DNA from: an uncultured Pseudomonadota bacterium
Lineage (GTDB): Bacteria; Pseudomonadota; Gammaproteobacteria; Burkholderiales; SG8-39
Length of the DNA stretch: 8,645 bases
Direction: 5' to 3'
Assembly: GCA_903909415.1 (NCBI GenBank)
Contig: CAIVVS010000251.1
Location: 1-8,645 of the forward strand
Position 1 is the first letter of the stretch. The number at the start of each line of letters is the position of its first letter. Positions 1-8,645 of the stretch are shown here, one piece after another. The notes below the pieces were generated by a model. It was not told where the DNA came from. It was given only the letters and a program-made list of their open reading frames with translations, and ran no database searches. The position numbers and the translations under genes were made by a program.

Positions 1-145
1 GCCGGCCGCCGGCCAGCACGGTGACGAGTTCATCGACCATTGCCATCGCCAGCAGCACCGCGCCCAGCACGAAGCTGGACTGGGGGATCCACAGAGGGAT
101 GGCGACCAGGCCGTTGGCCATGTCGTTGAACTCCCAGCTTTCCCA
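1..145 (-). repeat. Diverged direct repeat, copy A (dctQ 3' segment inside the chimera)
   Basis: Positions 1-145 align without gaps to 395-539 (offset 394 bp). By hand I count 18 mismatches in 145, about 88 % identity, mostly at synonymous positions. Similarity stops sharply at 145/539, the Trp codon of the shared Trp-Glu-Ser. The other end of copy A is cut by the window edge, so the true repeat length is unknown. Confidence 0.9.
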
Positions 146-301
146 GAAGGCCGAGAACAGGTTTTTGCCAGGCTGTGTTTGCGTGAAGAAGGCCTGGCCC
201 ACCCAGCCGCAGATGGCCAGGGTCATGGCGATCCAGACGCCGCCTGCCAGCAGCAGCATCATCACCAGCAGCAGGATTCCTCCGACCTCGATCAGGTTCA
301 T
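1..301 (-). CDS. Chimeric TRAP permease: DctM N-terminus joined to DctQ C-terminus (partial, runs off left edge)
   Basis: Reading from the ATG at 301 down to the edge gives 100 residues with no stop. Residues 1-55 start MNLIEVGG, contain one hydrophobic segment (about 8-38) and end GKNLFSAFWES; this matches the usual N-terminus of TRAP large permeases (DctM, 12-TM subunit), where Ser-rich sequence and a hydrophobic LAALPLFIWMG-type stretch normally follow. Here residue 56 onward instead reads WEFNDMANGL and continues to the edge as a near copy of DctQ residues 127-171 in the adjacent gene (three differences in 45: N/R, V/I, V/A). The switch is at Trp53-Glu54-Ser55, shared by both families. 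The gap from the dctQ stop is 31 nt, with no clear Shine-Dalgarno and no upstream in-frame ATG, GTG or TTG before it. It could be a non-functional recombination product, a re-anchored second small subunit, or an assembly mis-join. The chimera itself is read directly from the sequence; the family assignment of the N-terminus is from memory of DctM proteins. Confidence 0.75.
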   Translation of the reverse strand, partial: MNLIEVGGILLLVMMLLLAGGVWIAMTLAICGWVGQAFFTQTQPGKNLFSAFWESWEFNDMANGLVAIPLWIPQSSFVLGAVLLAMAMVDELVTVLAGGR

Positions 302-332: not shown

Positions 333-908
333 TCAGATGTCCTCGCTGAAGTCGCCGCGCGCGTGGCGCTGCTCGACCGCGACCTCGTAGCGCGGCCGGC
401 CTCCCGCCAGTACGGTGACGAGCTCGTCGGCCATCGCCATGGCCAGCAGCACCGCCCCCAGCACGAAGCTGGACTGCGGGATCCAGAGCGGGATGGCGAT
501 GAGGCCGTTGGCCATGTCCCTGAATTCCCAGCTCTCCCACACGAAGCGCGCCGCGGCCCAGGCGAGGAAGCCGCAGAATGCCGTGCCGACGAACAGGCAG
601 GCGATCTCCAGCGGGCGCCGGACCGCCGGCACGAGCTGCTCCGACAGCAAGGTGACGCGCACGAAGTCGCCGCGCTCGAAGGTGTGCGCCATGGACAGGA
701 AGGCGGCCGCCGCGCACATCCAGGATACGATGTCGTCGGAGCCCCCGGTGCGCATGCCCAGCTCGCGCATCACCGACACCGCGATCATGGTCGCGAAGAT
801 GGCGAAAACGAAAAACGCCGCGAGCATGCCCGCGGCGTCGTAGAGGAAGTCGAGCGCCTTGCGCAACGGGTGTCCCGCGGCCTGCCGCCCGGTTCCGTCC
901 CCGCTCAC
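333..908 (-). CDS. dctQ: TRAP transporter small permease subunit (DctQ family)
   Basis: Encodes a 191-residue inner-membrane protein, the usual size for the four-helix small subunit of tripartite ATP-independent periplasmic transporters. It pairs with DctM and accepts substrate delivered by DctP. Hydrophobic segments lie at about 27-47, 59-76, 101-123 and 142-168. Family-like features include the GGSDDIVSW stretch before helix 2, AHTFERGDFVRV in the loop after it, and FVWESWEF...IPLWIPQSSF between helices 3 and 4. The reading frame stays open far upstream into dctP, so the start must be chosen. I take the GTG at 908, whose GTGA overlaps the dctP stop by 4 nt, implying coupled translation. A TTG 15 codons further in is the alternative. 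The dctP-dctQ order and overlap are typical of TRAP operons. The odd point is that its 3' quarter is repeated in the next frame. Confidence 0.88.
   Translation of the reverse strand: MSGDGTGRQAAGHPLRKALDFLYDAAGMLAAFFVFAIFATMIAVSVMRELGMRTGGSDDIVSWMCAAAAFLSMAHTFERGDFVRVTLLSEQLVPAVRRPLEIACLFVGTAFCGFLAWAAARFVWESWEFRDMANGLIAIPLWIPQSSFVLGAVLLAMAMADELVTVLAGGRPRYEVAVEQRHARGDFSEDI
395..539 (-). repeat. Diverged direct repeat, copy B (native dctQ 3' segment)
   Basis: This is the in-place counterpart of the repeat at 1-145 and encodes DctQ residues 124-171, from Trp-Glu-Ser through the last membrane segment to Ala-Gly-Gly-Arg. Sequence just to the right (540 onward, the DctQ N-terminal part) shows no similarity to 146-301. 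Confidence 0.9.
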
Positions 909-1888
909 ATCTTGCGGAATGCGTCGACCACGGCGCGGCCCTCGGCGCCGGCTTTCTTGAGCCAGTCCTCGACCATGACGTCGCCGACCTTCTTCAGGTC
1001 GGCGCGCAGTTGCTGCGAGGGCGGATAGATGGTCATGCCGTTCTTGCGCAGCTGGTCCAGGTACCAGCCGTTCTTTTCCTCGGACACCTTCCAGCCGCGG
1101 ACCTCGGCGTCGGCGGCGGCCTTCTGCACCGCGGCGCGGGTGGCGGCGTCCAGCGCGTCCCAGGCTTTCTGGTTCACGATCACCGCGTTCTTGGGCAGCC
1201 AGGCCTGGGTGTCTGCGAAGAACTTCAGGTGCTCGAAGGTCTTGGAGTCGTAGCCGGTGGAGCCCGAGGTCATGAACGAGTTCACCACGCCGGTGGCCAT
1301 GGCCTGCGGCAGCTCGGCCGCCTGCACCGTGACCGGCTGCGCGCCGACCAGCTCGGCGATTTTCGCGGTCGCCGGGCTGTAGGCGCGCCACTTCAGGCCC
1401 TTGAGGTCGGCCGCGCTGTTGATCTGCTTGTTGGAATACACGCCCTGCGGCGGCCACGGCACCGAGAACAGCAGGCGCATGCCCTGCTTGGCAAGGCGCT
1501 CCTCCAGCGCCTTCTTCGATGCGCGGTAGAGTTTGTTGGACTCGGCATAGCTGGTGGCCAGGAAGGGGATGCCGTCGATCTCGTACATCGCATCCTCGTT
1601 GGCGAAGTTCACCAGCAGGATCTCTCCGGCCTGGGCCTGGCCGCCCTGGACCGCGCGCTTGATCTCCGGCGCCTTGAACAGGGAGGCATTGGCATGCACC
1701 TGGATCTTGAGCTTGCCGGCGCTGGCCTTGTCTACCTCGTCGGCGAACTGCTGGATGTTCTCGGTGTGGAAGTTGGTCGCCGGATAGCCGGTGGGGAGGT
1801 CCCATTTGGCCTGTGCCAGCGCGTTCGTGGACAAAAGCAATGCGATCGCGGACACGGTGAGCGAAAGCAGGGACGGGGCGTGGCGCAT
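905..1888 (-). CDS. dctP: TRAP transporter periplasmic substrate-binding protein (DctP family)
   Basis: Encodes 327 residues. It begins with a clear Sec signal peptide: Met-Arg-His, a hydrophobic core to about residue 20, and likely cleavage after Ala-Leu-Ala (residue 25) or Ala-Gln-Ala (27). The mature part is a DctP fold that captures a carboxylate in the periplasm for the DctQM permease. DLKGLKWRAYSP places Arg168 where family members keep the arginine that salt-bridges the substrate carboxylate. The following QAAELPQAMATGVVNSFMT is also typical. The frame is open 20 codons further upstream, but ATG 1888 is preferred: it starts the signal peptide and has GGAG seven nt upstream (plus-strand 1896-1899). 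The exact substrate cannot be read from the sequence. Pyroglutamate is a candidate because a fused oxoprolinase-like gene lies nearby and some Bordetella DctP proteins bind pyroglutamate (inference). Confidence 0.93.
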   Translation of the reverse strand: MRHAPSLLSLTVSAIALLLSTNALAQAKWDLPTGYPATNFHTENIQQFADEVDKASAGKLKIQVHANASLFKAPEIKRAVQGGQAQAGEILLVNFANEDAMYEIDGIPFLATSYAESNKLYRASKKALEERLAKQGMRLLFSVPWPPQGVYSNKQINSAADLKGLKWRAYSPATAKIAELVGAQPVTVQAAELPQAMATGVVNSFMTSGSTGYDSKTFEHLKFFADTQAWLPKNAVIVNQKAWDALDAATRAAVQKAAADAEVRGWKVSEEKNGWYLDQLRKNGMTIYPPSQQLRADLKKVGDVMVEDWLKKAGAEGRAVVDAFRKM

Positions 1889-1984: not shown

Positions 1985-3085
1985 TCAGCCGAGGTGCGCG
2001 ACGACCTCGTCGGCGATGGCGAGCGACGCCGTCAGCCCCGGCGATTCGATGCCGAACAGGTTCACCAGTCCCCGCACGCCATGCGCAGAAGGGCCCTGGA
2101 TCAGGAAATCCGCATTGCCGCCTTCAGGGCCGTGCAGCTTGGGACGGATGCCCGCGTAGCCCGGGGACAGCGCGCCGTCGGGAAGTTCCGGCCAGTAGCG
2201 CCGTATCGCCGCGTAGAAGCCGTCGGCGCGCGCAGGGTCCACCCGGTAGTCGATGGTCTGCACCCATTCCACGTCGGGGCCGAAGCGCGCCTGCCCCGCC
2301 ATGTCCAGCGTCAGGTGGACCCCCAGTCCCGCCGCTTCCGGCACCGGATAGACCAGGCGCGAGAACGGTGACCGACCTGCCAGCGCGTAGTAGTTGCCCT
2401 TGGCGTATCCCTGTGGCGGCAGGCGCATGGCTGGAAAGCCGGCGAGCGCCCGTGCGATCGAATGGGCATGCAGTCCGGCGGCATTCACCACGCTGCCCGC
2501 CAGCAAATCCATCGGGTCGGCGCCGCCCACCTGCAGCAGCACGCCGTTGTCGCGCAGTTCACCGCCCTGCACCGGGGAGCGCAGCGCCAGTACCGCGCCG
2601 TGCGCCTCGGCGTCGCCGAGCAGGGACAACATCAGGGCATGGCTGTCGATGATGCCGGTGGACGGCGAGAGCAGGGCGCGGGTGCATTGCAAGCGTGGCT
2701 CCAGGGCGCGCGCCCCGGCCGGATCCAACCGCGCGAGGTCGGTGACGCCGTTGGCCTGCGCCTGCGCCAGGATCGTGTCCAGCTTCGCGTGCTGGGCTTC
2801 GCCGGTGGCGACGATCAGCTTGCCGCACCGCCTGTGGGGTACACCCCGCTCGGCGCAGTAGCGGTAGAGGACATCGCGCCCGGCCACGCACAGGCGCGCC
2901 TTGGCCGTGCCGGGCGGATAGTAGATGCCGGCGTGGATGACCTCGCTGTTCCTGGCACTGGTGGCGGTGCCGAAGGCGTCCTCGGATTCCAGCACGAGCA
3001 CTTCACGCCCGGCCAGGGCCAGCGCGCGCGCCACCGCGAGGCCGACCACGCCTGCGCCGATCACCGCGCACTCGACCCGTTCCAT
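1985..3085 (-). CDS. FAD-dependent oxidoreductase, L-2-hydroxyglutarate dehydrogenase/LhgO-like
   Basis: Encodes 366 residues, a DAO-type flavoprotein. The N-terminus carries the FAD-binding Rossmann motif G10-A-G12-V-V-G15 after a beta strand, with Glu33 ending the second strand where family members bind the adenosine ribose. [14 protein letters not shown] (46-59), [26 protein letters not shown] and the C-terminal [14 protein letters not shown] are characteristic of the L-2-hydroxyglutarate oxidase/dehydrogenase group, which oxidises 2-hydroxyacids to 2-oxoacids. It is shorter than E. coli LhgO (about 420 residues) and has Glu where LhgO-type proteins often have Gly after Asn-Ser, so the substrate may differ. 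No signal peptide is seen, so it is cytoplasmic or membrane-associated. The start ATG 3085 lies 3 nt after the DMT stop (TGA-AGC-ATG), indicating tight translational coupling. No convincing terminator separates it from dctP. Confidence 0.88.
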
Positions 3086-4110: not shown

Positions 4111-7100
4111 ATGAACCAAGCAACAGCTGGCCGCTGGCAATTCTGGATCGACCGCGGCGGTACGTTCACCGACGTGGTCGCGCGCCATCCCGATGGACGC
4201 CTTCTCACCCACAAGCTGCTGTCGGAGAACCCCGGCCGCTACCGCGATGCCGCCATCGCGGGCATACGCGCGCTGATGGGCGTGCCCGAGGGCCAGCCCA
4301 TTCCGGGTGGGGCGATCGAGGCGGTCAAGATGGGCACCACCGTCGCCACCAATGCGCTGCTGGAGCGCAAGGGCGAGCGCACGCTGCTGGTCACCACGCG
4401 CGGCTTCCGCGACGCGCTGCGCATCGCCTACCAGAACCGCCCGCGCATCTTCGACCGCCACATCGTGCTGCCCGAACTGCTGCATTCGGATGTGGTCGAG
4501 GTGGACGAGCGCATCGGCGCGCACGGCGAAGTCGTCACGCCGCTGGACGAGGCCGCTGCCCGGCGCGACCTGCAGGCCGCGCGCGCCGGGGGCTACGCCT
4601 CGGTCGCGATCGCCTTCATGCATGCCTACCGCTACCCGCAGCACGAGCAGGCTGTGGCGCGTATCGCGCGCGAGGCCGGCTTCACGCAGGTGTCGACATC
4701 CAACGAGGTGAGCCCGCTGCTGAAGCTGGTGCCGCGTGGGGACACCACGGTGGTGGACGCCTACCTCTCGCCCATCCTGCGCCGCTACGTGGACCAGGTC
4801 GCCTCGGAACTGGCGGGCGTGCGCCTGATGTTCATGCAGTCCAACGGCGGGCTGACCGACGCGCGCCGCTTCCAGGGCAAGGACTCCATCCTGTCCGGCC
4901 CGGCAGGCGGCATCGTCGGCGCGGTCCGTTCCTCGCTCGCGGCGGGTTTCGACCGCATGATCGGCTTCGACATGGGCGGCACGTCGACGGACGTGTCGCA
5001 CTTCGCCGGCAGCGCACCCAGCGACATGGAGCGCGCCTTCGACACCCAGGTGGCCGGCGTGCGTATGCGCGCGCCGATGATGAGCATCCACACCGTGGCG
5101 GCCGGTGGCGGATCCATCCTGCATTTCGACGGATCGCGCTACCGCGTAGGCCCCGATTCGGCGGGCGCCAACCCAGGGCCGGCCGCGTACCGTCGCGGCG
5201 GGCCGCTGACGGTGACCGATGCCAACGTGATGCTGGGCAAGGTCCAGCCGCAGTTCTTCCCCTCGGTGTTCGGCCCCGGCGGCGACCAGCCGCTGGACGC
5301 GCAGGTGGTGCGCGAGCGCTTTGCGGCGCTGGCCGAGGAGATCCACGCCGCCACCGGTGACCGCCGCAGCCCGGAATCGGTCGCGGCAGGTTTCGTGCGC
5401 ATCGCCGTGGGCAACATGGCCGAGGCGATCAAGCGCATCTCGGTGCAGCGCGGCCATGACGTCACCGGCTACACGCTGAACTGCTTCGGTGGCGCGGGTG
5501 GCCAGCATGCCTGCCTGGTGGCGGATGCGCTGGGCATGACGCGTGTCTTCGTGCACGGCCTGGCCGGCGTGCTGTCGGCCTACGGCATGGGGCTGGCCGA
5601 CATCGCCGCGATGCGCGAGCAGTCGGTGGAACTGCCGCTGGCCGATGCCTCCGTGCCGCAGGTCGAGCAGGCGCTGGACCGGCTCGCGCAATCCGCACGC
5701 GACGAGGTGCTGGGGCAGGGCGTGCCGGCTGACCGCATCCGGGTCATCCGCCGCGCGCATGTGCGCTACGACGGCACGGATACCGCGCTGGTGGTGGATT
5801 ACGCCGCGCCGCAGGCCATGCAGGGCCAGTTCGAGGACGCCTACCGGATGCGCTTCAGCTTCCTGATGCCGGGCCGCGCGCTGGTGGTCGAGGCGGTGTC
5901 GGTCGAGGCGCTGGGTTTGTCCGAGGCGGGGACGCTGGAACCCGCCGCTGCCGCGGGCGCGGTGGAGCCGCCTGCGCCCGCCGCGCCGCCGGCGGCGCTG
6001 GAACAGGTGCAGATGGTCTGCGACGGAGCGGCGAAGAACACCCCGGTGTACCGCCGCGAGGCCCTGCTGCCGGGCCATCGCGTGGCCGGCCCCGCGATCA
6101 TCGCCGAGGCCAATGCCACCACCGTGGTCGAGCCCGACTGGGAGGCGCGCATGACCGCGCGCGGCCACCTGGTGATGGAGCGGGTGCGCGCGCGCCGCGC
6201 CGAGACCGCGATCGGCACCAGCGTCGACCCGGTAATGCTGGAGATCTTCAACAACCTGTACATGTCCATCGCCGAGCAGATGGGCCTGCGCCTGGCGAAT
6301 ACCGCGCACTCGGTGAACATCAAGGAGCGGCTGGACTTCTCCTGCGCGCTGTTCAACGCGCAGGGCGAGCTGATCGCCAATGCGCCGCACATCCCGGTGC
6401 ACCTGGGCTCGATGGGCGAGTCGATCCGGACCGTGATCCGCGAGAACGCCGGGAAGATGCAGGCGGGCGACGTCTACGTGCTGAACGCGCCCTACAACGG
6501 CGGCACCCACCTGCCCGACATCACCGTGATCACCCCGGTGTTCGATGAGGCTGGGCGCGAGATCCTGTTCTACGTCGGGTCTCGCGGCCACCACGCCGAC
6601 ATCGGCGGCACCAGCCCCGGCTCCATGCCGCCCGACAGCAAGGTGGTCGAGGAAGAGGGCGTGCTGATCAACAACTTCAAGCTGGTCGAGCGCGGGCGCT
6701 TCCGCGAGCAGGAGACGGTGGACCTGCTCACCTCCGGCCGCTACCCGGTGCGGAACGTGGCGCAGAACCTCGCCGACCTGCGCGCGATGATCGCCGCCAA
6801 CGAGAAGGGCGTGCAGGAACTGGCGCGCATGGTGCGGCACTTCGGCCTGGACGTGGTGCACGCCTACATGCGCCACGTGCAGGACAACGCCGAGGAGTCG
6901 GTGCGCCGCGCCATCACCGGCCTGGCCGACGGCAGCTTCCGCTACGAGATGGACAACGGCGGCGTGGTGCAGGTGGCCATCCGCATCGACCGCAAGGCGC
7001 GCGGCGCGGTGGTGGATTTCACCGGCACCTCGGCCCAGCTGCCGAACAACTTCAATGCCCCCTCGGCGGTGTGCATGGCCGCGGTGCTGTACGTGTTCCG

Positions 7101-7976: not shown

Positions 7977-8645
7977 ATGGATAGGCGCACCGTCTGCTCG
8001 AAGACCGCCAAGGGGCTGATGGAAGCCTCGGGCAAGACCAGCCTGCTGTCGCGCGACCTGCGCAACCTGCTCAAGGAGGTCGACGGCAAGCTGTCGGTCG
8101 CCCAGATCGGGGAGAAGTTCGGCAAGGTTCCCGAGGCCAAGTTGCTGGAGGCGTTCAAGCGCCTTGAGTCCGACGGGTTCCTGCGCTCGGTGGTAGCGAC
8201 CCCGGACCGCGCCGCGCCGCCGTCCCAGAGCGCGGCGCCCAACACCGAGGAGTCCGACCTGGACTTCACGGCCATGCCCGGCGCCGGCCCGACCAAGGAC
8301 GACGAGGACGCATTCCAGCAGGCACAGGCTGCCGAGATCGCGCGCATCGCCGCGGAGACCCGCGCCCGGGAGGCGGCTGCGGCGAAAGCCAAGGCTGAAG
8401 CCGAGGCGCGCGCGCGGGCGGAAGCCATCGTCAAGGCGCGCCTGGCCGCCGAAGCCAAGGTCAAGGCCGACGCCGAGGCCAAGGCGAAAGCCGAGGCCGA
8501 GGCGAAGATCCGGGTCCTCGCGGAAGCGAAGGCAGCCGCGGAAGCGAAGGCAGCCGCGGAAGCGAAGGCAGCCGCGGAAGCGAAGGCAGCCGCGGAAGCG
8601 AAGGCAGCCGCGGAAGCGAAGGCAGCCGCGGAAGCGAAGGCAGCC
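7977..8645 (+). CDS. Unknown protein: small N-terminal domain plus long Ala/Glu/Lys-rich helix (partial, runs off right edge)
   Basis: The first 223 residues are present, without a stop. Residues 1-72 look globular: a basic start (MDRRTVCSKTAKGLMEASGK), a helix with LLSRDLRNLLKEVDGK, then helix-turn-helix-like IGEKFGKVPEAKLLEAFKRLESDGFL ending in a possible wing. This resembles a small winged-helix fold and, from memory, the N-termini of uncharacterised betaproteobacterial proteins, but I cannot name the family. Residues 73-112 form a Pro/Ser- then Asp/Glu-rich linker. From about 113 on the chain is Ala/Glu/Lys/Arg-rich helix, first irregular, then strictly repeated from 182. There is no signal peptide or N-terminal membrane anchor, so it is not TolA-like. 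The start ATG 7977 has a weak GGA 8 nt upstream and follows a consensus -10. The C-terminal domain that would reveal its function is outside the window. Confidence 0.8.
   Translation, partial: MDRRTVCSKTAKGLMEASGKTSLLSRDLRNLLKEVDGKLSVAQIGEKFGKVPEAKLLEAFKRLESDGFLRSVVATPDRAAPPSQSAAPNTEESDLDFTAMPGAGPTKDDEDAFQQAQAAEIARIAAETRAREAAAAKAKAEAEARARAEAIVKARLAAEAKVKADAEAKAKAEAEAKIRVLAEAKAAAEAKAAAEAKAAAEAKAAAEAKAAAEAKAAAEAKAA
8520..8645 (+). repeat. Seven perfect in-frame 18-bp tandem repeats (AEAKAA)
   Basis: The unit GCGGAAGCGAAGGCAGCC repeats exactly seven times, from codon 182 to the last base of the window, with no substitution even at third positions. Each unit encodes Ala-Glu-Ala-Lys-Ala-Ala. Upstream codons (about 8316-8519) encode similar but diverged AEAKA-type sequence. 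The array probably continues past the edge, so the copy number is a minimum. Confidence 0.97.

Follow-up and report, generated by a model that had tools for sequence, protein, structure and literature searches.

An in-frame dctM–dctQ junction near a contig end looks most like an artefact of assembly or library preparation

The window (the whole stretch of DNA that was analysed, 8,645 nucleotides) opens with a frame which starts as the TRAP large permease gene dctM and ends as the tail of a second copy of dctQ, the small permease gene. Its most likely explanation is an artefact of assembly or of the library; failing that, it looks like a private broken copy, and not like a new kind of gene. We assign a probability of roughly 0.63 to the reading that an artefact joined dctM, at about nine shared bases, to the dctQ of a close relative or of a paralogue; the sequence shows the join itself, the divergence of the second tail, its place at the contig end and its absence from the matches examined, whereas we infer that the join is artificial and where the tail came from. 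The short contig would carry dctP and dctQ as well as the initial 156-165 bases of dctM. At its left end, a word of about 9 bases common to both genes (TGGGAAAGC) would connect dctM with the tail of a different dctQ, which comes either from a close relative present in the sample or from another TRAP operon in the cell itself. Most likely, the join arose when the library was prepared or the reads were assembled, and dctM continues normally in the living genome. A mis-join, which the initial annotation had named only as something to be checked, fits best with the position at the contig end and with the absence of the fusion from the matches examined.

Composition of the chimeric frame

Table 1. 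Features of the window on the TRAP operon and in its surroundings.
Feature	Position	Strand	Basis or remark
Chimeric open frame, 100 codons	2..301	-	ATG at 301-299; runs open to the window (contig) edge
dctM-derived part, 55 residues, the last three being the common Trp-Glu-Ser	137..301	-	Best agreement with 436-aa DctM proteins 48/55
Junction, Trp-Glu-Ser common to dctM and dctQ (TGGGAAAGC)	137..145	-	Sequence comparison
Second dctQ tail, 48 residues, ended by the contig end	1..145	-	127/145 nt to 395-539; 45/48 aa
Intact dctQ, 191 aa	333..908	-	PF04290, 2.7e-19; GTG start at 908, as in P0103
Stretch of intact dctQ pairing with the second tail	395..539	-	Ungapped alignment and repeat finder
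dctP (TRAP substrate-binding protein), with which the operon begins	905..1888	-	PF03480, 5e-43; NF037995, 8.4e-38
FAD oxidoreductase gene	1985..3085	-	Like L-2-hydroxyglutarate oxidase
Hydantoinase gene, 1222 aa	4111..7779	+	Hydantoinase A and B (oxoprolinase-type) domains
18-base tandem repeat	8519..8645	+	Perfect, 7.1 copies, reaching the last base

The initial annotation had described the frame after dctQ as DctM for 55 residues and DctQ thereafter, uninterrupted in the window, with the switch exactly at Trp-Glu-Ser, a tripeptide present in both proteins. Each of these points was recovered. The minus-strand frame is open over all 100 codons from position 301 to position 2. Residues 1-55 agree with DctM proteins of 436 aa in up to 48 of the 55 residues, and from Trp-Glu-Ser on the frame agrees with the window's own DctQ in 45 of 48 residues. 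The motif NASWELAA comes next in 116 of the 120 DctM relatives listed from the 1,799 found, so the switch falls after Trp-Glu-Ser; the DctQ motif IPQS occurred within residues 51-140 in none of the 120. Searches of Pfam and NCBIfam with the 100-aa chimera returned no family, and neither did a Pfam search with the 55-aa DctM piece, so the DctM identity of residues 1-55 is taken from the direct comparison with DctM proteins. The chimera has no match to the small permease domain (DctQ, PF04290), its tail holding 48 residues only, and none to the transport domain of the large permease (DctM, PF06808), a protein of approximately 436 aa of which it contains the 55 N-terminal residues only. With GC3 values of 0.865 for the dctM part and 0.896 for the second tail, compared to a mean of 0.917 (sd 0.055) over 47 blocks of the other window genes, no compositional break was seen at the join.

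In natural fusions of the two permease subunits, too, a single frame encodes sequence from both DctQ and DctM. In SiaQM of H. influenzae, DctQ is connected through its C-terminal part, by way of an additional helix, with the N-terminal part of DctM (PMC5812351). There DctQ precedes DctM, unlike in the window, where a DctM start is followed by a DctQ tail and both are partial; the arrangement of a natural DctQM fusion, with DctQ first and both proteins complete, was not found in the chimera.

Position at the contig end

The database record P0103 is 100% identical to the window DctQ, and its contig has 8645 bases, the same as the window. Most likely, the window is therefore the whole contig and base 1 a contig end, which puts the join 145 bases from that end. 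The right end of the window also stops within a repeat with a perfect 18-base unit. Both circumstances argue for an artefact and the first of them against a genuine deletion. The repeat sits in a frame with weak TolA-like similarity.

Inter-genome translocations are reported to be the commonest misassembly in CAMI data (PMC9661791), and chimeric contigs in metagenome assemblies are counted in another publication (PMC11261854). The window resembles such translocations in that, close to a contig end, its sequence switches abruptly to a dctQ of a different lineage; its mis-join is proposed here from sequence comparison.

Two further genes lie near the TRAP operon. The hydantoinase A and B domains are combined in a single frame, and a related hydantoinase is present in 53 of 80 loci, these being the best 80 of 379 matches to the chimera. 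The FAD oxidoreductase scored 213.5 bits, which is below the NCBIfam cut-off of 299 bits.

Divergence and origin of the second dctQ tail

In an ungapped alignment of positions 145..1 with 539..395 of the local dctQ, 127 of 145 nucleotides and 45 of 48 amino acids are identical, and a repeat finder independently paired the same two stretches at 88%. The 18 differing positions comprise 14 synonymous and 4 non-synonymous changes (dS ~0.56, dN ~0.04). By these rates the second tail is a dctQ under purifying selection, so it was evolving as part of a working gene until it was joined. Sequencing error was rejected as its origin because 14 of the 18 differences are synonymous.

The tail is closest to the window's own dctQ (45/48), the next best of 120 listed DctQ proteins (2,466 found) reaching 40/48. 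Such closeness is to be expected if the tail comes from a sister strain, a sister species or a close paralogue, and it counts in favour of the preferred reading. The 90% cluster of the window DctQ (P0103) has 9 members, and outside this cluster the closest dctQ among the matches listed is at 73%.

The same figures bear on the two histories put forward in the initial annotation. According to the first, a tandem duplication of the 3' end of the local dctQ together with the 5' end of dctM left a chimera between an intact dctQ and an intact dctM. In its recent form this is rejected, since 18 of 145 positions differ, dS is 0.56 and the near-identical copies to be expected were not found. An old, diverged duplication fits the gene order and the open frame, but we regard it as very improbable: the differences between the tails are not those of a recent copy, nor those of a useless fragment in decay. 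A fragment with dS 0.56 and dN 0.04 would have to have been retained under selection for a long time, and none of the relatives examined has one.

According to the second history, a deletion between two neighbouring, paralogous TRAP operons connected dctM of one with dctQ of the other. In the form considered here, the operons have direct orientation and the deletion is recent and illegitimate, with the join at Trp-Glu-Ser. The rest of the first dctM and the front of the second dctQ would have been lost and an intact second dctM would follow; the first dctQ and the second dctM could still form a transporter, the chimera being a by-product. A paralogue would also have evolved as a working dctQ, and the tail is in accordance with this. 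We consider a real deletion unlikely, although it is a possibility to be taken seriously.

Microhomology at the junction

TGGGAAAGC, the spelling of the chimera, is also the commonest one at this site in related dctM genes (55 of the 80 matches that fall within the 15 commonest forms), and the local dctQ has TGGGAGAGC. The parents probably shared a word of about 9 bases, with a range of 5 to 11 as they are deduced from relatives, which agrees with the approximately 9 nt of microhomology in the initial annotation. As chance model, 1,123,000 in-phase joins were formed from 71 natural same-strand dctM/dctQ pairs; at least 9 nt were shared by 0.07% of these joins and at least 5 nt by 1.9%. Since the shared word exceeds chance, the join points to a process that used short homology, whether in the cell or in amplification or assembly. 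Assemblers and PCR are able to join at short overlaps.

Homology above chance, estimated here from relatives at 9 nt, is what a microhomology-mediated deletion would leave, and it counts for the real deletion and, short homology being found in real deletions, against an artefact; the reading frame, which is kept across the join, also counts against an artefact. In Salmonella, a study on spontaneous rearrangements takes junction microhomology longer than that in simulated chimeric reads as a sign of reality, with verification cut-offs of 8 bp for deletions and a deduced 11 bp for duplications (PMC3411829). The window junction is similar to the junctions described there in its approximately 9 bp of presumably shared sequence, and different in that this sequence is estimated from relatives instead of from an unrearranged parent of the same genome. 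The 8-bp cut-off is counted here against an artefact and the 11-bp cut-off against the old tandem duplication.

Search for the same fusion elsewhere

A scan of 84,980 reference species with the chimera gave 379 confirmed stretches. Among the best 80 of these, no such fusion was present, and the highest-ranking one is a DctM of the usual kind (56% over residues 1-92). The junction pattern was also found in none of 100 loci (3 pairs of which overlap and 9 of which are without any dctQ match). The DctM matches in these loci comprise 91 of full length, 6 cut by the locus edge, 3 distant homologues (29-30% identity) and 1 with an internal deletion; 7 loci have no DctM match, and 6 of the 7 had been fetched for the oxidoreductase gene.

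In a set of 399 genomes, 19 matched, and the 30 listed rows contain no DctM start joined to a DctQ tail: the halves of DctM type and those of DctQ type are located apart from each other, and one short DctQ row of 96 aa (G012) is a dctQ ended by its contig end. The junction is thus absent from related genomes, as for a misassembly or library chimera; these genomes are not close to the species of the window, their dctQ reaching 59% at most in the best genome matches, so a rearrangement confined to that species may have escaped the search. The best oxidoreductase match is at 68%, and 36 genomes from the family to which it led yielded no match at the set threshold. Viral contigs gave no match to the junction pattern, which is weak evidence, and a plasmid search returned 44 records, of which the 20 listed match the hydantoinase gene only. 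The absence of the fusion from the best 80 of 379 matches, the 100 loci and the 30 listed rows for 399 genomes argues for an artefact and against a deletion. A literature search on TRAP operon duplication produced nothing on point by title and abstract.

Other joins and broken copies at TRAP permease genes

All of 102 related short database proteins were read, the candidates having 55-175 residues, a choice which favours broken or joined pieces. DctM only was found in 83 and DctQ only in 9. Five proteins join DctM to antisense DctM (P0018, P0032, P0045, P0046, P0087) and one joins DctM to antisense DctQ (P0098). Four were labelled as DctM with sense DctQ, of which P0016 and P0070 are true sense fusions; P0009 and P0051 (1 and 2 hits) were rejected, as they only carry upstream leaders read from the dctQ end. 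Joins between sense and antisense sequence are an expected product of artefacts. With 6 antisense and 2 sense joins, the 102 proteins show the mixture expected of artefacts, and DctM joined in all orientations supports an artificial origin of the window junction as well.

P0016 and P0070 are like the window chimera in having a DctM start, a DctQ tail and a tripeptide common to both parents, but their breakpoints differ, P0016 having 112 residues of DctM and a shared GSV and P0070 having 30 residues and a shared LAI. The window's breakpoint itself is present in none of the 102 relatives. In P0016, the DctM part (112/112) and the DctQ tail (35/38) are like locus L038, which would also fit a single related genome, so that this protein speaks neither for an artificial nor for a real join. 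The contigs of P0016, P0070 and P0098 have 5566, 1195 and 1603 bases.

A functional small membrane protein, competing for instance with DctQ for DctM, could be read from an open frame that holds parts of both proteins. We find this scarcely credible, given that the breakpoint recurs in 0 of 102 relatives and that both sense fusions break elsewhere. No support was found in these comparisons for a conserved or functional chimera.

Whether a suitable second operon is at hand was judged from the 100 loci. Two dctQ copies are present in six of them and none in 9. In five of the six the copies lie on opposite strands, with 60-66% amino acid identity, and in one they share a strand. The latter, L043 from Cupriavidus basilensis, has the only same-strand second dctQ in the 100 loci, 3.7 kb after the first and with 85% amino acid identity over 132 residues and 87% nucleotide identity to it. 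This copy (5230-5937, plus strand) is truncated, continues without a change of frame into a biotinyl/lipoyl attachment domain, and lies approximately 2.4 kb past the end of an intact dctM. In L083 (969-1424, minus strand; genome G062), residues 1-66 of DctM are joined to residues 351-436 in a frame of 157 aa, i.e., by an in-frame internal deletion. Broken TRAP permease genes thus occur in assembled genomes. Lying inside genome contigs, L043 and L083 tell against an artefact and keep the deletion between paralogous operons alive; against this history counts that a second dctQ on the same strand was seen in one of the 100 loci only (9 of them without dctQ, with 3 overlapping pairs), the other two-copy loci having the wrong orientation.

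Implications

The preferred reading is still the artificial join. If this is right, the window illustrates cleanly that a tripeptide common to two genes, when it lies close to the end of a contig, can yield a believable in-frame fusion gene. If the frame were translated, the product would begin as DctM and finish with the final portion of DctQ, without a transport domain. If the join is real, it would indicate partner swapping between paralogous TRAP operons via illegitimate recombination. In a wider form, which we hold to be highly unlikely, Burkholderiales-like dctQM operons would repeatedly recombine dctM with paralogous dctQ at short shared words, so that TRAP operons exchange their Q and M partners. 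Three independent snapshots of this process would then be seen in the window, P0016 and P0070, with the broken copies of L043 and L083 as by-products.
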